This document shows, piece by piece, positions 18,154 to 35,041 of a DNA stretch of 42,852 nt. A program made the position numbers and the translations under genes. This DNA comes from a bacterium (GTDB lineage Bacteria; Bacillota_I; Bacilli_A; RF39; UBA660): assembly GCA_030524925.1 (NCBI GenBank), contig JAUNFS010000006.1:1-42852 (forward strand), given 5' to 3'. The notes under the pieces are model-generated. The model searched no databases, had not been told where the DNA came from, and worked only from the letters and a program-made list of their open reading frames with translations. Position 1 is the stretch's first letter, and each line of letters begins with the position of its first letter.

Positions 18154-18831
18154 ATGGATAAAATTTTAATAGCTGAAGATGATGAGAAGTTAAGAAATGA
18201 ATTAGAGATATTTTTAAATAATAATGGATATGAAACTATTGGTTTAAAAACGTTTGATGATACTTTAAATGATATATTAAAGATAAATCCTAGATTGCTA
18301 CTTTTAGATATCAATTTGCCGGGAGCTGATGGTGAATATATTTGTAAAGAGTTAAGAAAAAAGTCTAATATGCCAATTATTATAATTACTAGTAGAGATA
18401 ATGAAATAGATGAATTATTAAGTATAAATAATGGTGCTGATCATTATGTTACGAAACCATTTAATATTCATATTTTACTTGCTAAGATTAATTCACTTTT
18501 AAGAAGAAGTAATATGGTTAGTGATAAAGTAGTAATTGATGCTGGAGATTTTGTACTTAATGTAGATAAAAGTACTATAGAAAAAGATGGCAATGTGTTA
18601 GAACTTACTAAAAATGAATTTAGAATATTAAAGTTTTTAGTTCAAAATATGGATAAAATTGTTACTAGAGAAGAGATTATGATTTGTTTATGGGACAGTG
18701 ATAGTTTTATAGGTGATAGTACTCTTACGGTTAATATGACTAGGCTTAGAAATAAATTAGATGAAATGGGACTAGAAAATCTTATTGAAACTAAAAGAGG
18801 ACAAGGTTATATTTTAAAAAGGAGAAGGTAA
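18154..18831 (+). CDS. OmpR-family response regulator, BceR-like
   Basis: A 225-residue two-domain transcription regulator. The receiver domain (1-115) has the acidic pocket D9/D10, the phosphorylated D52 (LLDINLPG), T79 and K101 (TKP). The winged-helix DNA-binding domain (about 125-225) has LTKNEFRIL and the C-terminal RGQGYIL. Its stop overlaps the start of the kinase gene (TAATG). Genes for a kinase with almost no outer loop and an ABC transporter follow, so it is the regulator of a BceRSAB-type antimicrobial peptide response. It shares TTACAAAA and AGTGGCAGA elements with the promoter of the transporter genes. Confidence 0.93.
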   Translation: MDKILIAEDDEKLRNELEIFLNNNGYETIGLKTFDDTLNDILKINPRLLLLDINLPGADGEYICKELRKKSNMPIIIITSRDNEIDELLSINNGADHYVTKPFNIHILLAKINSLLRRSNMVSDKVVIDAGDFVLNVDKSTIEKDGNVLELTKNEFRILKFLVQNMDKIVTREEIMICLWDSDSFIGDSTLTVNMTRLRNKLDEMGLENLIETKRGQGYILKRRR

Positions 18832-19853
18832 TGATGAGTTTTTGGATGCTTCTAAAAGAAAAACTTGTACAGATAGTTTTGTTAGTATTTGCAGTTGTTA
18901 CAATAGAGATTTTTTTAATGATATATTCATTTGATAGCTTTATTAAAATTTATATTCCAGTGATAATTTTTGGTTTATATATGGTTGGTTTTATTTATGA
19001 GTATCTGATAAAGAAAAGATACTATGATGAATTACAAAAAACAATTGATGGACTTGATGAGAAGTACTTAATTACTGAAATTATGAAAACGTCAAATTTT
19101 GTTGAGGGCAAAATTTTAAACGATATTTTAAGCCAAGTTGATAAATCTATGCATGAGCAGGTTAATAAATATAAATATTTACAAGAGGATTATAAAGAGT
19201 TTATAGAACTATGGATTCATGAAGTTAAATTGCCACTTGCTACTAGTAAAATGATTATTGAAAATAATAAGAATAAAGTTACTAAAAGTATTGAAGAAGA
19301 GTTAGATAGTATAGAAAATTATATAGAGCAGGCTTTGTTTTATGCGAGAAGTAGTGCGGTTGAAAAAGATTATAGTATAAGAAAATGTAATTTAAAGGAT
19401 ATTGTTAGTGAAAGTATTAAAAAAAATAAGACTAGTCTTATTGAGGAAAAAGGGGAAATTAATATTCACGATTTAGATAATGTAGTTAGTACTGATAGTA
19501 AATGGATTGTTTTTATTCTTAGCCAAATTATTCAAAATAGTGTTAAGTATAGAAATAAAAAATTGTTATTAAATATTGAAATTTATAGTGAGCCTAAAAA
19601 AGATAATACCGTACTTTATATAAGAGATAATGGGATTGGTATAAAAAAAGGAGAAATTTCTAGAGTATTTGATAAAGGGTTTACTGGGACTAATGGAAGG
19701 TTAGCAGGTAAAAAATCAACAGGAATAGGTCTATATTTATGTAAGAAGCTATGTGAGAAACTTGGGGTATCAATAAATGTGATGTCTACTGAAGGGGATG
19801 GGACACTTATAAGTTTGGTTTTTCCAAATAGTAGTTTTGTGAGACTAAAATAA
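18831..19853 (+). CDS. Intramembrane-sensing histidine kinase, BceS-like
   Basis: 340 residues. Two membrane helices near the N-terminus (about 13-33 and 39-60) are joined by only a few residues, so there is no real extracellular sensor. The phosphorylated His is H130 in LWIHEVKLPL. The ATPase domain has the N box IIQNSVKY, DNGIGI and TGIGLYLC. Kinases of this type do not detect the peptide themselves; they receive the signal from the partner ABC transporter. The start can be either ATG at 18831 or 18834. A good site (AAAGGAGAAGG) lies inside the end of the regulator gene. Confidence 0.93.
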   Translation: MMSFWMLLKEKLVQIVLLVFAVVTIEIFLMIYSFDSFIKIYIPVIIFGLYMVGFIYEYLIKKRYYDELQKTIDGLDEKYLITEIMKTSNFVEGKILNDILSQVDKSMHEQVNKYKYLQEDYKEFIELWIHEVKLPLATSKMIIENNKNKVTKSIEEELDSIENYIEQALFYARSSAVEKDYSIRKCNLKDIVSESIKKNKTSLIEEKGEINIHDLDNVVSTDSKWIVFILSQIIQNSVKYRNKKLLLNIEIYSEPKKDNTVLYIRDNGIGIKKGEISRVFDKGFTGTNGRLAGKKSTGIGLYLCKKLCEKLGVSINVMSTEGDGTLISLVFPNSSFVRLK

Positions 19854-19856
19854 ATG

Positions 19857-19920
19857 TTACAAAAGTGTAGGGTTATTGTAAGGTAAATTAGTGGCAGATA
19901 ATTATAAAAACGACTATAAT
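19857..19920 (+). promoter_or_regulatory. Probable regulator-binding site and promoter of the BceAB-like genes
   Basis: TTACAA (19857-19862) and TTGTAA (19876-19881) form an inverted repeat upstream of a promoter with TGGCAG (19892-19897), 17 nt and TATAAT (19915-19920). The poor -35 box and an upstream inverted repeat are what one expects of a promoter that needs an OmpR-type activator. AGTGGCAGA also occurs at 18135-18143 upstream of the regulator gene. Confidence 0.5.
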
Positions 19921-19948
19921 TAAGACGTATTTTGAAAGGAGTTTTTAT

Positions 19949-20716
19949 ATGGAAAATATATTAGAGGTTAAAAATGCATTAAAATATTATGGTAATAAGT
20001 CTAATTTGACTAAAGCTATTGATAATGTAAGTTTTAGCGTACAAAAAGGTGAATTTGTCGGAATAATGGGTGCTTCTGGTAGTGGTAAGACTACACTTTT
20101 AAATTGTATTTCAACGATTGATAAAGTTACAGCAGGGCATATTATTATTAATGGTGATGATATTACTGAGCTTAAAGGAAATAATTTAAATAAGTTTAGA
20201 AGAGAAGAACTTGGATTTATTTTTCAAGATTTTAATTTACTTGATACTTTAACTGCTTATGAAAATATTGCACTTGCTTTAACAATTCAAAAAATAGATG
20301 CTAAAGAGATTGATAAAAGGGTAAGAGATATTGCTAAGAAGTTGGATATTGATAAAATATTAAGTAAGTATCCTTATCAATTATCAGGTGGTCAAAAACA
20401 AAGGGTAGCGTCTGCTAGAGCAATTATAACAAATCCTAAGTTAGTGCTTGCCGATGAACCAACGGGGGCATTAGATTCTAAGTCTGCTAGACAGTTATTA
20501 GAGACTTTTACAGCACTAAATGAAGATTTGGATGCAACAATTTTGATGGTTACACATGATGCGTTTACTGCCAGTTATGCTGATAGAATTATTTTTATTA
20601 AAGATGGTAAAATATTTAATGAATTAGTAAAAGGAAATAATACTAGAAAAGAGTTCTTTGAGAAGATTATTGAGGTTCAAACTCTTCTTGGAGGTGAGCT
20701 AAACGATGTTATTTAA
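19949..20716 (+). CDS. ABC transporter ATPase, BceA-like
   Basis: 255-residue ATP-binding subunit. Walker A is GASGSGKTT, the signature is LSGGQKQR, Walker B is LVLADEPTGALDS and the switch His is in VTHDAF. These match the MacB/BceA group that partners FtsX-type permeases. AAAGGAG lies about ten nt upstream of the ATG. The permease gene overlaps the end by 11 nt. Together they probably free cell-wall precursors from antimicrobial peptides such as bacitracin or lantibiotics and also signal to the kinase. Confidence 0.95.
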   Translation: MENILEVKNALKYYGNKSNLTKAIDNVSFSVQKGEFVGIMGASGSGKTTLLNCISTIDKVTAGHIIINGDDITELKGNNLNKFRREELGFIFQDFNLLDTLTAYENIALALTIQKIDAKEIDKRVRDIAKKLDIDKILSKYPYQLSGGQKQRVASARAIITNPKLVLADEPTGALDSKSARQLLETFTALNEDLDATILMVTHDAFTASYADRIIFIKDGKIFNELVKGNNTRKEFFEKIIEVQTLLGGELNDVI

Positions 20717-22793
20717 ATTATCATTTAAAAACATGAAAAAATGCTTTAAAGATTATGCGATTTACTTTATAACTTTAATATTAGGGGTTGCAATATTTTA
20801 CATGTTTAACTCTTTAGATAGTCAAGAAGCGATGCTTGAAGTATCTAGTTCAACTAAAGAAATGATTAAACTAATGATTAATATGCTTGGCATGGTATCA
20901 GTATTTATTGCAGTCATACTTGGACTATTAATTGTGTATGCAAATAGATTTTTAATTAATAGGAGAAAAAAAGAATTTGGTATATATATGACTCTTGGTA
21001 TGGGAAAAAGAGATATTTCTAAAATACTATTATTTGAAACTATCTTTATTGGTATAATTTCTCTAATCATTGGTTTAGTGCTTGGAGTTTTTGGGTCACA
21101 GTTAATGTCTATTTTGGTAGCAAAACTATTTGAAGCAGATATGAGTAATTTTGAGTTTGTTTTTTCACAAAGTGCATGCATTAAAACATGCGTCTATTTT
21201 GCAATAATGTATCTAGCTGTAGTATTTTTTAATTCATTTACAGTATCAAGATATAAACTTATTAATCTTTTAAATGATGCTAAGAAAAATGAGCAAATAA
21301 AAATGAAGAATCCTGTTATGTGTATAATCGTATTTATATTATCGTGTTTGGGTCTATCATACGCCTACTGGATCGTAACTAAAGGTATCTATAAATTACA
21401 TGGAGTAAACGAAACAACTTTCTATATTGGTATAGCAGTAATAATTGGGGTAATTACAACAATTTTAATTTTTTGGTCAATATCTGGTTTAATTTTAAAA
21501 CTAGTTCAATCAAGAAAAAGTATTTATTTAAAAGGTACAAATATGTTTGTTTTAAGACAACTACATAATAAAATTAATACAACTGTAATAAGTGTAAGTG
21601 TAATATGTTTAATGCTATTTATGACAATTACAGCATTGTCTTCATCTTTGGCTTTAAAAAATTCAATGCAAAAAGATATTGAAAAACTCACACCTGTTGA
21701 TATTAATTTATATAAAACTGCTAACTTAGATAAGAGCGCTGAAAGTATTACTTATAGTGAAGAAATAAAAAAGGATTCTAAAATGCCAATTTCTTACACA
21801 CTTAAAGAAAATGGATTTGATATGAACCTCTTAAAAGATATTATAGAAGTACCTATTTATGAACTAAGTGATTTAACATGGGAAAAAACATTAGGAAGTG
21901 CTGCTATTGATATTAAAAAGGAATTTCCAATGATGAATTTAACAACTCCAGAAATGATTATAAAACTATCAGATTATAATAAAATAGCAAAACTTTATGA
22001 TAATAAAGAATATACTTTAAATGATAATGAATATTTAATAATTGCTAATTATGAAAGTATTGCGGGCATGAGAAATAAGGGGTTACAGGCAAACACAGTA
22101 ATTAATATAAATGATAGTGAGTATAAGCCTAAATATCAAAAATGCGAAGATAGTTTTATTGAGATTTCTACTAGCAAAACTAATGTTGGAATTATAGTTG
22201 TTCCTGATAGTGCTAATTTAAATATTGATAATCAAAAATTATGGCTTCTAGCAGCAAATTATAATGCTAAGACTAAAGAAGAAAAAGATAAAATAGAGGA
22301 TATTTTTTCAAATAATGAGTCTGTTCTTAATCAAAGACTTCATGAAGCTAAAAACTCTTTAAATAGTGATACAAAAATTAAGATGTTTGAATCAAGCGTT
22401 GGTTTATCAACTATTGTTGTGTTTATTGCAATTTACTTAGGAATTATTTTTCTTATAGTAAGTTGTGCGGTTCTTGCACTTAAACAGTTAACTGAAAGTT
22501 CTGATAACAAACAAAGATATATTATTTTAAGAAAAATTGGCTGTGATGAAAAGATGATTAATAGTGCTTTATTTAAACAAATTGCGATATTCTTCATTCT
22601 GCCTTTAATCTTAGCAATAATTCATTCTATATTTGGTATTCAGTTTGCTTTATCAATATTTGATACTTTGGTTTCCAAAAAACAATTAATTCCATCTGTT
22701 ATAATGACGGTAATTGTAATGGGACTTGTTTATGGCTGTTACTTTTTAGCAACTTATATTGGTAGTAAGAATATAATTAAAGATTATGATTAG
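20706..22793 (+). CDS. ABC transporter permease, BceB-like (FtsX family)
   Basis: 695 residues with ten predicted membrane helices. A first hairpin is followed by an FtsX-type bundle, a large extracytoplasmic domain between about residues 310 and 560 and a C-terminal FtsX bundle. This is the BceB layout; the outer domain is the part that recognises peptide-lipid complexes and sets specificity. The opening MLFKLSFKNMKKCFKDYAIY is typical of the family. Which peptide is recognised cannot be read from sequence. A terminator follows. Confidence 0.93.
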   Translation: MLFKLSFKNMKKCFKDYAIYFITLILGVAIFYMFNSLDSQEAMLEVSSSTKEMIKLMINMLGMVSVFIAVILGLLIVYANRFLINRRKKEFGIYMTLGMGKRDISKILLFETIFIGIISLIIGLVLGVFGSQLMSILVAKLFEADMSNFEFVFSQSACIKTCVYFAIMYLAVVFFNSFTVSRYKLINLLNDAKKNEQIKMKNPVMCIIVFILSCLGLSYAYWIVTKGIYKLHGVNETTFYIGIAVIIGVITTILIFWSISGLILKLVQSRKSIYLKGTNMFVLRQLHNKINTTVISVSVICLMLFMTITALSSSLALKNSMQKDIEKLTPVDINLYKTANLDKSAESITYSEEIKKDSKMPISYTLKENGFDMNLLKDIIEVPIYELSDLTWEKTLGSAAIDIKKEFPMMNLTTPEMIIKLSDYNKIAKLYDNKEYTLNDNEYLIIANYESIAGMRNKGLQANTVININDSEYKPKYQKCEDSFIEISTSKTNVGIIVVPDSANLNIDNQKLWLLAANYNAKTKEEKDKIEDIFSNNESVLNQRLHEAKNSLNSDTKIKMFESSVGLSTIVVFIAIYLGIIFLIVSCAVLALKQLTESSDNKQRYIILRKIGCDEKMINSALFKQIAIFFILPLILAIIHSIFGIQFALSIFDTLVSKKQLIPSVIMTVIVMGLVYGCYFLATYIGSKNIIKDYD

Positions 22794-24946: not shown

Positions 24947-25003
24947 CTAAATCATGAAAGTAAATATATGGAATAGCATTCTTCTTAGTATTCTAAAAAA
25001 CAT
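24947..25003 (-). CDS. Possible 18-residue hydrophobic, Arg-containing peptide
   Basis: A minus-strand frame starts at 25003 six bases after a perfect AAAGGAGG (complement of 25010-25017), among the strongest ribosome sites in the window. The product MFFRILRRMLFHIFTFMI is hydrophobic with three Arg and would form an amphipathic helix. It lies about 47 nt upstream of spoIIIAH on the same strand. It could be a sporulation micro-protein (SpoVM is a known short amphipathic example, without sequence similarity here), a leader peptide, or the stump of a gene lost from the inverted repeat that precedes it. Confidence 0.4.
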   Translation of the reverse strand: MFFRILRRMLFHIFTFMI

Positions 25004-25041
25004 AATTAACCTCCTTTGTTAATTGCTCATTAGAGATTCCT

Positions 25042-25083
25042 CTCTATTAGTTATTGTTGTAAAAAGAATAGCTATTTCCTTTT
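25042..25083 (-). repeat. Left arm of a 42-nt imperfect inverted repeat
   Basis: The complement of 25042-25062 is identical over 21 nt to 25890-25910. The complement of 25073-25083 is identical over 11 nt to 25869-25879. The 10 nt between differ in both arms but have the same length. A small hairpin TAGAGA-GGAA-TCTCTA adjoins the outer end (complement of 25031-25046). Confidence 0.85.
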
Positions 25084-25820: not shown

Positions 25821-25868
25821 TTATTAAAATTACTGATTTTTTTTAGTTATCAACAAAATAAAAAAATT

Positions 25869-25910
25869 AAAAGGAAATAAAGCTTAAGCTTACAACAATA
25901 ACTAATAGAG
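25869..25910 (+). repeat. Right arm of the inverted repeat, in the leader of the bacteriocin exporter
   Basis: Pairs with 25042-25083 as described for the left arm. Its outer end runs straight into the GGAGG ribosome site (25911-25915) of the C39 exporter gene. The divergent middle, AAGCTTAAGC, forms part of a duplicated AAGCTT. Confidence 0.85.
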
Positions 25911-25919
25911 GGAGGAAAG

Positions 25920-27920
25920 ATGAAAAGTTATGTTGTAAGACAAGAAGATGAAGCTGATTGTGGAGCTTGCTGTTTGCTGTCTATTTTACTTTATTATGGG
26001 GGATATATGCCACTAGAGTTAATTAAGGTCGATACCTTAACAAATAAAAATGGTACTAATTTTTATAATATTAAAGTAGCAGCAAATAGATATGGTTTAG
26101 ATGCTACTGGGAAAAAACTACTAAAAGTAGTTGGTAATATGCCTTGTATAGCACAGGTTAATATTAAGGGTTTATTTCATTTTGTAGTTATTTATAAGAT
26201 TACAGATAAGTATCTTTTGTTAATGGATCCAAGCAAAGGACTAGTTAAAGTAAATTTAGATGATTTTTATAGAGTGTTTACTGGCTATATTTTAGAGTTT
26301 ACACCTACAAGTGCAGTTATCTATTATAAGCCTAAATCGTTGTTTATTAACTATTTAAAAGAGGCATTTTTAAGTAATATTAAAATTATATCTTTATTAT
26401 TAATTATTTCTTTATTAGTTGTATTTTTGAGTTTATATAGTACTAGTATGATTGAGTTAGTAATTAATAATAAGAATAGGCTTTATATATATGTTTTTAT
26501 CTTCTTAATAATGTTAAAAGTTTTATTTTGTTATTTAGAAAATATCTTAATTGCTCATTTAAATAAAAATATAAATAATAAGATAACATTTAGTTATTTA
26601 GAACATTTATTTTTTCTCCCTTTTAAATATTTACAGTTAAAGAAGAAAGGTGATTTAATTAATCGGTTACAGGATTTAAATGGAATTAAAGATTATTTTT
26701 CAGTAGGTATAATTGAGAGTGTTATTAATATTTTATATATATTAGTTAGTAGCATTATTTTAATTAAGATTAATTTAAAACTATTTTTGATTCTATTATT
26801 TTTTAGTATCTTGTATTTGCCAATAGCAATCTATAATAGTAAAAAGATTTATTATGATATAGAAAAGATGATAGAAAATGATAATGAACTTATGGATGAT
26901 TTAGTTAGTGGAATTAATAATCTTTGGACTATTAAAGTATTAAATAAATCAAAGTTTATTTTAAAGAACATTAATGGTAAGTTACATACTGGATATTTTA
27001 GTCATTTTATGTTTGATAAAAAAAGAGCTAGAAATGACTTATTAAATAATTTTTATGAGAGCATATCTTTTGCTGGATTAATTATTTTTGGAAATTTATT
27101 AAATATAAAACTTTCTTTGTTACTTGTGTTTATTTTTATATATAATTATTTTAGTTCGGGAGTTAAATTCTTTTTAGATTTTATCCCTAATTATTTGTAT
27201 TTTAAGAGTACTTATCAAAGAATTAATAGTTTGTTTTATCTTGAGAAAGAAAACGAGGAAGGAATTAAATGGGTTAATGGAGATATAGCTATTAGTAATT
27301 TATCTTTTAGTTATGATCTTAATATTATTTTTAATAATTTTAATTTATTTATTCCGATGGGAAGCAAAGTATTATTAAGAGGTAATAATGGTAGTGGAAA
27401 GAGCACTCTTTTAAATATTTTATTTAGAATTATTGATAAGTATAATGGTTTAATTACAATAAATAACCAAGATCTACGAAGTATTATTTTTAACGAGGTT
27501 AGAAATAATATTTGTTATGTAAGTCAAAATGATGGCTTACTGCCAGGCACAATTCTTTATAATATTTTATTAGATGAAGAATATGATGATTTAAAAATGA
27601 GGAGGATAAGTTCATTACTTTATCTAGATAGAATTATAAATAATAAAATTAATGGTATAAATACAGTGATTAGAGATAATTTGAGTGGAGGTGAAAAACA
27701 AAGAATTATCTTAGCTAGAGCCTTGTATAGAAATTTTGACGTGTTGCTTCTTGATGAAGCTCTTTGTGAGGTAGATTATAAGTTAAGAACTAAAATAATA
27801 TTTAATATTAATAATTATTATAAAGATAAGACAATAATTATGGTGAGTCATAATGAAGAAAAATTTAAATTTGATAAAGTTGTTAATTTAACTGTTAGAA
27901 AGGATTGGTATGTTAGATAA
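25920..27920 (+). CDS. Bacteriocin exporter with C39 leader peptidase (ABC transporter)
   Basis: 666 residues in the classical three-part layout. The peptidase C39 domain (1-130) has Q8 and the catalytic C14 in QEDEADCGACC, a His in LFHFVV and an Asp in LMDPSKG. A membrane domain with about six helices covers 150-420. The nucleotide-binding domain has Walker A GNNGSGKST (488-496), the signature LSGGEKQR, Walker B VLLLDEALCEVD and the switch VSHNEE. Such proteins cut double-glycine leaders and export the peptides. Two such peptides are encoded immediately after it, the first starting inside its end. The site GGAGGAAAG is strong. Confidence 0.96.
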   Translation: MKSYVVRQEDEADCGACCLLSILLYYGGYMPLELIKVDTLTNKNGTNFYNIKVAANRYGLDATGKKLLKVVGNMPCIAQVNIKGLFHFVVIYKITDKYLLLMDPSKGLVKVNLDDFYRVFTGYILEFTPTSAVIYYKPKSLFINYLKEAFLSNIKIISLLLIISLLVVFLSLYSTSMIELVINNKNRLYIYVFIFLIMLKVLFCYLENILIAHLNKNINNKITFSYLEHLFFLPFKYLQLKKKGDLINRLQDLNGIKDYFSVGIIESVINILYILVSSIILIKINLKLFLILLFFSILYLPIAIYNSKKIYYDIEKMIENDNELMDDLVSGINNLWTIKVLNKSKFILKNINGKLHTGYFSHFMFDKKRARNDLLNNFYESISFAGLIIFGNLLNIKLSLLLVFIFIYNYFSSGVKFFLDFIPNYLYFKSTYQRINSLFYLEKENEEGIKWVNGDIAISNLSFSYDLNIIFNNFNLFIPMGSKVLLRGNNGSGKSTLLNILFRIIDKYNGLITINNQDLRSIIFNEVRNNICYVSQNDGLLPGTILYNILLDEEYDDLKMRRISSLLYLDRIINNKINGINTVIRDNLSGGEKQRIILARALYRNFDVLLLDEALCEVDYKLRTKIIFNINNYYKDKTIIMVSHNEEKFKFDKVVNLTVRKDWYVR

Positions 27921-28044
27921 TAAAGAACTTTTACAAGTTGAAGGCGGAGCGATTAAGTGGACCGTTGGAATAATCTTAGGCGCATTTGCTTCTTTACTTG
28001 CGGGAATTATTGATGGTTATCTAAGACCCGGGAAGTGTAACTAA
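27910..28044 (+). CDS. Double-glycine bacteriocin precursor A (two-peptide class candidate)
   Basis: 44 codons starting at ATG 27910, with AAAGGA six nt upstream, inside the end of the exporter gene. The leader MLDNKELLQVEGG has the ELxxV-GG pattern of class II leaders. The mature peptide of 31 residues (AIKWTVG... to LRPGKCN) is hydrophobic with two GxxxG motifs, GIILG and GIIDG, and a cationic end. GxxxG motifs in both partners are characteristic of two-peptide (class IIb) bacteriocins. The stop overlaps the start of the second peptide gene (TAATG), so the two would be made in equal amounts. Confidence 0.88.
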   Translation: MLDNKELLQVEGGAIKWTVGIILGAFASLLAGIIDGYLRPGKCN

Positions 28045-28190
28045 TGAGTGATAAAGAGATGGTATTAGTTTATGGTGGTTTTAGTACTACATTACTTAAT
28101 TCTTTAGCAAGAATATTGACAGTAGTTTTTAATATTGGCAAGTCTGTTGGAACATCTATTAGAATGATAAGACAAAAACAAAAATGTTAG
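28044..28190 (+). CDS. Double-glycine bacteriocin precursor B (two-peptide class candidate)
   Basis: 48 codons from ATG 28044, with GGGAAG upstream. The leader MSDKEMVLVYGG ends in two Gly. The 36-residue mature peptide (FSTTLLNSLARILTVVFNIG...) has a GxxxG motif (GKSVG) and a strongly basic tail ending RQKQKC. It would act with peptide A in the target membrane. A single Cys near the C-terminus of each mature peptide is unusual for this class and could allow dimer formation; this is inference. Confidence 0.85.
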   Translation: MSDKEMVLVYGGFSTTLLNSLARILTVVFNIGKSVGTSIRMIRQKQKC

Positions 28191-34032: not shown

Positions 34033-34626
34033 ATGAAAATTGATAGTTCAAATTTAAGTACAATTGCGGTTAGAACAAGTCAGTATCCTACTGATAATAA
34101 GCCAGAATTTTTACTTGTTGGTAGAAGTAATGTTGGTAAAAGTAGTTTTATTAATACACTTTTGGGAAGAAAGAATTATGCTAAAACCAGTGCAACACCT
34201 GGTAAAACTCAAACTTTAAATTTTTATATTTGTAATGATGAATTTTATTTAGTAGATGTACCAGGTTATGGATATGCTAATACAGATAAAAGTACGCAGA
34301 AGAAACTTGGATTAATGATAGAAGATTATTTAAAAACTAGAACTAATTTGGTGAGAGTTTTTATGTTAGTTGATGGTAGAATGAAACCTACAGAAAATGA
34401 TGTTTTGATGTATAATTATTTAAAGTATTATAATGTACCAACAACTGTTGTTGCTACTAAATATGATAAATTAAAAGCTAAGGATAGGGATAAGAATATT
34501 AAAAATGTTTCGTTAGTACTCAATTTAAATGATGATGATAAGGTTGTAGCTTTTTCTAATGTTACTAAAAAGGGTAAAGAAGAGGTTTTAAATATTATTT
34601 TAGAAGGGCTTAATAATGAAGAATAA
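34033..34626 (+). CDS. engB: Ribosome-biogenesis GTPase EngB (YsxC)
   Basis: 197 residues. G1 is GRSNVGKSS, the switch region has TSATPGKTQTLNF, G3 is DVPGYGYA and G4 is TKYDK. The family is essential in many bacteria for assembly of the large ribosomal subunit. AGAGGAAC lies upstream of the ATG. The last codons overlap the start of the pseudopilin gene by 11 nt. Confidence 0.96.
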   Translation: MKIDSSNLSTIAVRTSQYPTDNKPEFLLVGRSNVGKSSFINTLLGRKNYAKTSATPGKTQTLNFYICNDEFYLVDVPGYGYANTDKSTQKKLGLMIEDYLKTRTNLVRVFMLVDGRMKPTENDVLMYNYLKYYNVPTTVVATKYDKLKAKDRDKNIKNVSLVLNLNDDDKVVAFSNVTKKGKEEVLNIILEGLNNEE

Positions 34627-35041
34627 AAAAGGGTTTACGCTAGTTGAACTTCTAGCAGTTATTTCAGTTTTAGCGATTGTAATGGTTATAGTTATTCCGG
34701 CAGTAAGTAATAATAGTAAGACTGCAAAAGAAGGAATTTTAAAAACTAAATTAGATTTAATTGTGGATCAATCTATTATATGGGGGCAAGATCATATTAA
34801 CTATTTTGTAAATGAATCTGAACCACTGGAAGAGTGCACGACTAGTGATGATTTGGTTAGCTGCAAGATTAGTTTTGGTGCTTTAGCTAAAGAAGGGTAT
34901 GTAAAGTACGATGAAGGTGAAATAATAAGTGATCCAACTAAAAGAAGAGATAATTTAAATAATGAAAAAATAGATATTGTTTATGATAAGAAGAAAAATG
35001 ATGTAAGTGCTACTTATGATAGTAGTCATTTGTTTGATTAA
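34616..35041 (+). CDS. Orphan type IV pilin-like (pseudopilin) protein
   Basis: 141 residues. The N-terminus KKGFTLVELLAVISVLAIV is a class III (prepilin) signal: cleavage after Gly by a prepilin peptidase, Phe at +1, Glu at +5 and a long hydrophobic helix. The rest is a small outer domain with two Cys (EECTTSDDLVSCK) and an acidic end. No pilus assembly ATPase, platform protein or peptidase is visible in the window. It overlaps engB, so expression may be coupled to that housekeeping gene. Competence pseudopilin is one possible role. Confidence 0.88.
   Translation: MKNKKGFTLVELLAVISVLAIVMVIVIPAVSNNSKTAKEGILKTKLDLIVDQSIIWGQDHINYFVNESEPLEECTTSDDLVSCKISFGALAKEGYVKYDEGEIISDPTKRRDNLNNEKIDIVYDKKKNDVSATYDSSHLFD

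Follow-up and report, generated by a model that had tools for sequence, protein, structure and literature searches.

The window analysed here is a stretch of 42,852 nucleotides (positions 1 to 42,852 of contig JAUNFS010000006.1, assembly GCA_030524925.1) from a bacterium of the GTDB lineage Bacillota_I; Bacilli_A; RF39; UBA660. Its subject is a pair of small peptide genes, here called A and B, that begins within the end of an exporter gene. The exporter gene (25920..27920, + strand) encodes a peptidase C39 ATP-binding cassette (ABC) protein whose Pfam domains Peptidase_C39 (PF03412), ABC_membrane (PF00664) and ABC_tran (PF00005) all score above their cut-offs. It was found that peptide A (27910..28044, +) has 44 amino acids, with a 13-residue double-glycine leader, MLDNKELLQVEGG, and a 31-residue mature part, AIKWTVGIILGAFASLLAGIIDGYLRPGKCN, and that peptide B (28044..28190, +) has 48 amino acids, with a 12-residue double-glycine leader, MSDKEMVLVYGG, and a 36-residue mature part, FSTTLLNSLARILTVVFNIGKSVGTSIRMIRQKQKC; cleavage is placed after the GG in both. 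The start codon of A lies inside the exporter gene, with an overlap of 11 nucleotides, and the start codon of B overlaps with the stop codon of A by one base (TAATG). A first-pass annotation, made from the letters of the window, had placed open reading frames (ORFs) of 44 and 48 codons at this site, where both are indeed present. It had also described both as starting inside the exporter gene with a one-base overlap between them; this is true of A and of the mutual overlap, whereas B does not start inside the exporter gene. The exporter is expected to cleave both leaders and to export A and B.

Two adjacent small-peptide genes, double-glycine leaders with a C39 exporter, and a GxxxG motif in both mature peptides are expected of a class IIb two-peptide bacteriocin, and all of these were found. 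In the window, the mature part of A is a hydrophobic helix with the motif GIIDG, the C-terminal sequence ..RPGKCN and a charge of +2, while that of B is cationic (+6) and helical, with GKSVG and a C-terminal Cys. The AlphaFold2 model of A is a single long helix (residues 4-38) with a mean predicted local distance difference test score (pLDDT) of 81, and that of B is a single long helix (residues 14-43) with a mean pLDDT of 73. The sizes of 31 and 36 amino acids, the charges and the modelled helices fit membrane-active peptides of this class. The leaders ending in GG, the two GxxxG motifs and the single Cys close to each C-terminus had been noticed at first reading and were all borne out. The class IIb anatomy proposed there also holds, and it is invariant in relatives; the antimicrobial role stays putative.

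Conservation of the peptide pair in the family

Is this pair common in the family? Among 290 genomes of the window's family, A was found in 238, B in 221 and the exporter in 228, usually in one copy each. A profile built from 41 A peptides was positive in 224 of the 241 genomes of the window's order, in 203 of the 216 genomes of good quality and in 86 of 93 genera. In a draw from the class, the profile was positive in 34 of 38 family members vs 4 of 258 others, and these four are leader-length matches only. Some genomes scored as negative for A still carry divergent copies (e.g., L023 of G007). The named contigs carrying A are metagenome-assembled genomes of uncultured Bacilli, Mollicutes and Tenericutes, including Candidatus Pelethosoma and Candidatus Faecisoma, two genera that I take to belong to the GTDB order RF39. 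In the open-access literature searched, which is not the whole of the literature, there was no report of such peptides in this lineage. A "putative class IIb bacteriocin" has been mentioned for Ca. Mycoplasma girerdii, where it is apparently unique to that species (PMC10557491).

The motifs are kept with the genes. In 158 distinct pairs, the Cys is kept in 158 A and 156 B sequences and GxxxG in 153 A and 156 B sequences, and the distance between the A and B genes ranges from -53 to +24 nucleotides in nearly all of them. The spacer from GxxxG to Cys is 6 residues in A (140/141) and 11 residues in B (150/154). The alignment of 41 A sequences has invariant G, G, D, G and C (G-x-x-D-G ... RPxxC), and that of 41 B sequences has an invariant G-x-x-x-G and C. 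A fixed Cys in both peptides is unusual. Lactococcin G is not known to have a conserved Cys. A disulfide between single cysteines is, according to a review-type source, not reported for such bacteriocins (PMC10059821). This register-locked Cys probably serves in a disulfide between A and B, or else has some other fixed function. Since parallel helices crossing at GxxxG would put the 6-residue extended tail of A and the 11-residue helical stretch of B at a similar depth, an A-B disulfide is plausible, by reasoning of this kind and not from a structural model.

Peptide A scored 30.7 bits against NCBIfam TIGR03949 (class IIb, lactobin A/cerein 7B), whose curated cut-off is 21.5, while B had no family match, TIGR03949 included. 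Thus, the earlier impression that the peptides resemble no bacteriocin that can be named survives for B and fails for A. At E<=0.01, TIGR03949 was matched by 36 of 41 A-family members, the lactococcin G-beta model by 22 and the alpha model by 7. The A family shares the double-glycine leader, GxxxG and the C39 exporter with the TIGR03949 peptides; the model covers mainly the leader and the hydrophobic part, and the C-terminal motif GVIDGYxRPLKCN with its Cys is specific to the A family. Lactococcin G-alpha/beta and enterocin 1071 (NCBIfam NF038034 and NF038035) are likewise two-peptide systems with GxxxG-based helix pairing (PMC8538875), but their similarity to the A family is weak and mostly at the level of the leader. 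The only match among solved structures was a weak one of the leader, with the CtA substrate peptide 7s5j.

The ratio of nonsynonymous to synonymous substitution rates (dN/dS), taken from close species pairs with dS < 1.2 that are not independent of each other, is 0.37 for the leader and 0.11 for the mature part of A, 0.21 and 0.23 for those of B, and 0.16 for the exporter in comparable pairs. A and B are under purifying selection; they are kept, not diversifying. Because the pair is seen beside the exporter again and again in the family and its codons are under such selection, A and B are far from chance, and chance ORFs were ruled out. The phylogenies of the exporter and the peptides show a positive correlation of modest size (rho 0.28, n=58), so purely vertical inheritance of the pair is likely, short of proven.

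The exporter is directly upstream of A in 60 of 61 fetched regions. In about half of the regions, a single-span protein of 115-166 amino acids is inserted between the exporter and A; it has no Pfam match, is taken for a short HlyD-like accessory and is absent from the window and its nearest relatives. In 64 of 158 loci, B is followed by a third gene, for a leaderless peptide of about 55 amino acids that has a membrane segment and shares the GxxxG..R motif with B. By its position after the two structural genes, it is a putative immunity gene. The flanking genes are core genes (YqeY, RpsU, RsmD, SpoIIIAH, GerM and CCA transferase), and the locus recurs in the settings SpoIIIAH-GerM, YlbD-RsmD and RpsU-YqeY. 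A mobile or phage-borne cassette was rejected in view of these flanks, the lack of a plasmid match and the lack of a confirmed copy in viral contigs.

A promoter common to the exporter operon and comEA

The operon promoter (25868..25914, +) consists of AAAAGGAAAT, a spacer of 10 nucleotides and CTTACAACAATAACTAAT, followed by the ribosome-binding site GAGGGAGG, and it is common to comEA of the same genome. In the genome of the window, the exporter and comEA promoters both read AAAAGGAAAT-N10-CTTACAACAATAACTAATAGAGGGAGG; when aligned (exporter, AAAAGGAAATAAAGCTTAAGCTTACAACAATAACTAATAGAGGGAGG; comEA, AAAAGGAAATTGAGAGGCATCTTACAACAATAACTAATAGAGGGAGG), they match over 28 nucleotides. De novo inspection of the sequences upstream of the exporters had revealed an element, [AC]AGGA[AT][AT]T, whose position ahead of the ribosome-binding site is fixed. 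The AGGA[AT]3 element was found there before 64% of 107 exporters, whereas among 508 control genes no equally wide window had it in more than 7%; it was counted alone, as the two-block score is partly driven by an upstream run of T. Searching genome G099 for the pattern of this element brought up comEA.

ComEA scores above the cut-off in 28 of 30 genomes (in the window's genome on contig 26, 87 bits vs 53.1), and in the window's genome comEA is followed by comEC. The element is present before comEA in 19 of 24 genomes. Within one genome, the exporter and comEA promoters have a common, lineage-specific sequence; in G136, there is one difference between them in 48 nucleotides. The mean local alignment score is 23.3 for pairs from the same genome and 13.6 for mismatched pairs, and none of 10,000 permutations reached the mean of the own pairs. 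In 15 of 27 cases, the own pair lies above the 99th percentile of other genes in the same regions. Among 807 gene upstream sequences in the regions, four strongly resemble the exporter promoter: those of comEA, two PD-(D/E)XK (Rpn-like) genes and one before SpoIIIAH in the sister species locus L091, the last being a second promoter copy that serves an 18-codon ORF.

A -10 sequence fitting sigma-H/ComX is seen in some genomes (AGGAWWW ... GCGAATAA in G234) but not in many others, and the factor is therefore called alternative-sigma-type. Expression together with competence genes is expected of a CibAB-type system; here, the promoter sequence suggests that the exporter-A-B operon is co-controlled with comEA.

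A proposed competence bacteriocin and the rival readings

The pneumococcal cibABC locus belongs to the late competence genes controlled by ComX; CibAB lyses non-competent kin that lack CibC, and this feeds transformation (PMC5295010). All of S. pneumoniae is reported to carry cibABC (PMC13059744). Peptides of class IIb form pairs through GxxxG and make membranes permeable (PMC8538875). My proposal, with a probability of about 0.68, is that A and B together form a two-peptide bacteriocin of class IIb that belongs to the competence regulon and acts like CibAB, in fratricide. The proposal builds directly on the gene structure, the family-wide conservation, the invariant motifs, the purifying selection and the promoter common to comEA. 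The near-core status in the family, the comEA promoter and the third, immunity-like gene of relatives are things that the sequence-only view of the first-pass annotation could not show.

At the onset of competence, a promoter of the alternative-sigma type would switch on comEA-comEC for DNA uptake, and the same promoter type would switch on the exporter-A-B operon. The C39 exporter would strip the double-glycine leaders and export both peptides. The hydrophobic helix of A and the cationic helix of B would then pair via GxxxG within the membranes of neighbours that are not competent and make these permeable, and killing of the neighbours would set DNA free for uptake. Release of A and B in competence and opening of the neighbour's membrane are proposed because of the CibAB precedent and the GxxxG-based permeabilisation of class IIb peptides.

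The likeness to CibA and CibB is claimed for the way of working, not as membership by sequence homology. As in CibABC of Streptococcus pneumoniae, in which CibC is the immunity protein, there are two small peptides in a putative competence regulon, with an alternative-sigma promoter in common with DNA-uptake genes (PMC5295010, PMC13059744), the locus is kept across a taxon, and many relatives have a candidate immunity gene behind the two structural ones. In contrast to CibABC, the present locus belongs to a distantly related lineage (Bacilli/Mycoplasmatota), has a dedicated exporter in the same operon and an invariant Cys in both peptides, and is without the third gene in the window. CabAB of Streptococcus mitis is also a competence-late two-peptide bacteriocin, which causes contact-dependent lysis of neighbours and increases DNA uptake (PMC13059744); it comprises variable accessory genes (95 variants), unlike the near-universal single pair found here.

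Several points weigh against a competence bacteriocin. That the peptides are kept across the whole family is unusual for a weapon, as bacteriocins are usually patchy, strain-level weapons, and a few genomes are without detectable A. Of the competence machinery, the survey covered ComEA and ComEC. The element is absent before spo0A and spoVG of the family, which are known sigma-H targets in B. subtilis; an assignment to sigma-H by way of these two genes was therefore rejected. The third gene was found neither in the window nor in the rest of its genome as assembled (85% complete), and the closest relatives are also without it, so that the proposed reading does not account for immunity in these genomes.

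Could the peptides be signals? A and/or B may be a competence pheromone, sensed at the surface as exported double-glycine peptides that induce comEA as well as the operon encoding them, in the manner of ComC, which ComAB exports. The promoter in common with comEA and the strong conservation of mature A would suit a pheromone, and a C39 exporter with double-glycine peptides is also pheromone architecture. However, there are two peptides here, both with an invariant GxxxG and a hydrophobic or cationic helix, and the ComC Pfam match of A (12.3 bits, under the cut-off of 20.4) covers the leader part only. The linked histidine kinase and response regulator sought as the mark of a ComC/BlpC-type pheromone were not found among the conserved neighbours of the locus; the kinase gene at 18831-19853, at a distance of 6 kb, adjoins a BceAB-like ABC pair and is not kept together with the locus. 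A pheromone is thus unlikely.

It is somewhat more improbable still that A and B act on the producer itself in transformation, for example by opening its own envelope or aiding DNA passage, and are not a weapon. Near-universal single-copy presence and purifying selection on both peptides would be natural for such a role, as would the absence of an immunity gene from about 60% of the loci, whereas the architecture and motifs are those of a class IIb bacteriocin and the other loci have the third gene at the usual position of immunity genes.

A role in sporulation (cannibalism or signalling at the onset of spore formation), to which the neighbours SpoIIIAH (adjoining in 20 of 61 regions), GerM (18 of 61) and a GerE-like gene, the presence of Spo0A in 30 of 30 genomes and the more frequent lack of SpoIIIAH in genomes without detectable A (5/19 vs 2/61, Fisher p=0.007) might point, is very improbable, since the promoter is that of comEA and not of spo0A or spoVG, good scores of sigma-E-like sites are seen with SpoIIIAH and GerM and not with the exporter, SpoIIIAH is retained in 14 of the 19 genomes without A, and the operon lies beside RsmD/YlbD in other genomes. 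Sporulation control of the operon, with its weak statistics, was rejected.

For the competence bacteriocin, a more specific form can be imagined, which I hold to be possible but doubtful. In this form, a family-wide, vertically inherited competence toxin would be a disulfide-joined A-B heterodimer: GxxxG would pair the helices, the spacers of 6 residues in A and 11 in B would bring both Cys together, and the leaderless third peptide would shield the producer by mimicking the GxxxG half of B. If this were true, it would be the first fratricide system near the core of a whole family of uncultured, genome-reduced gut bacteria.

The presence of the pair in more than 90% of good genomes and the promoter tie to DNA uptake suggest that lysis of neighbours or kin for DNA is a basic trait of the lifestyle of this abundant gut lineage, which is uncultured and genome-reduced. 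A general coupling of competence and killing in Gram-positives becomes testable beyond streptococci, the promoter signature may be used to find the competence regulon of unculturable organisms, and hundreds of natural A/B pairs with an invariant Cys are offered to peptide chemistry.

Other genes with the promoter and in the window

A second copy of the competence-type promoter is present in the window (25039..25083, -). Behind it lies a putative 18-codon ORF, MFFRILRRMLFHIFTFMI (24947..25003, -), with a good ribosome-binding site, and the sister species has a counterpart, MLFRFLFRALYLTFRMFL, in L091 near 12112 (+). The 18-codon ORFs predict a cationic hydrophobic peptide, which could be a leaderless peptide toxin or a signal. 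PD-(D/E)XK (PDDEXK_2, Rpn-like) nuclease genes with the comEA/exporter promoter occur in L095 (near 1425, +), L116, L268 (near 1956, +) and L367 (near 2166, +) and are possibly a new member of the competence regulon. G099 has an extra 40-residue peptide with a double-glycine leader, MVLNKQELININGGCLRYIFTIGLKKIVMKLNKAIMAFFS, alone behind the same promoter and far from the exporter (L331 / L369, near 6440, +); it is a candidate pheromone or further bacteriocin. TTCGACA repeats, similar to 0A boxes, lie upstream of spo0A in L271-L296 and suggest that Spo0A autoregulation is kept in the lineage.

In the window, genes for a response regulator, a sensor kinase, an ABC ATPase and a 695-residue FtsX-type permease stand in a row (18154-22793, +), 3 kb upstream of the exporter. 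They resemble a BceRS-BceAB module for sensing of and resistance to peptide antibiotics and are not conserved with the locus. A prepilin-like ORF, MKNKKGFTLVELLAVISVLAIVMVIVIPAVSNNS... (34616-35041, +), directly follows an engB-like GTPase gene and possibly encodes a type IV or competence pseudopilin.
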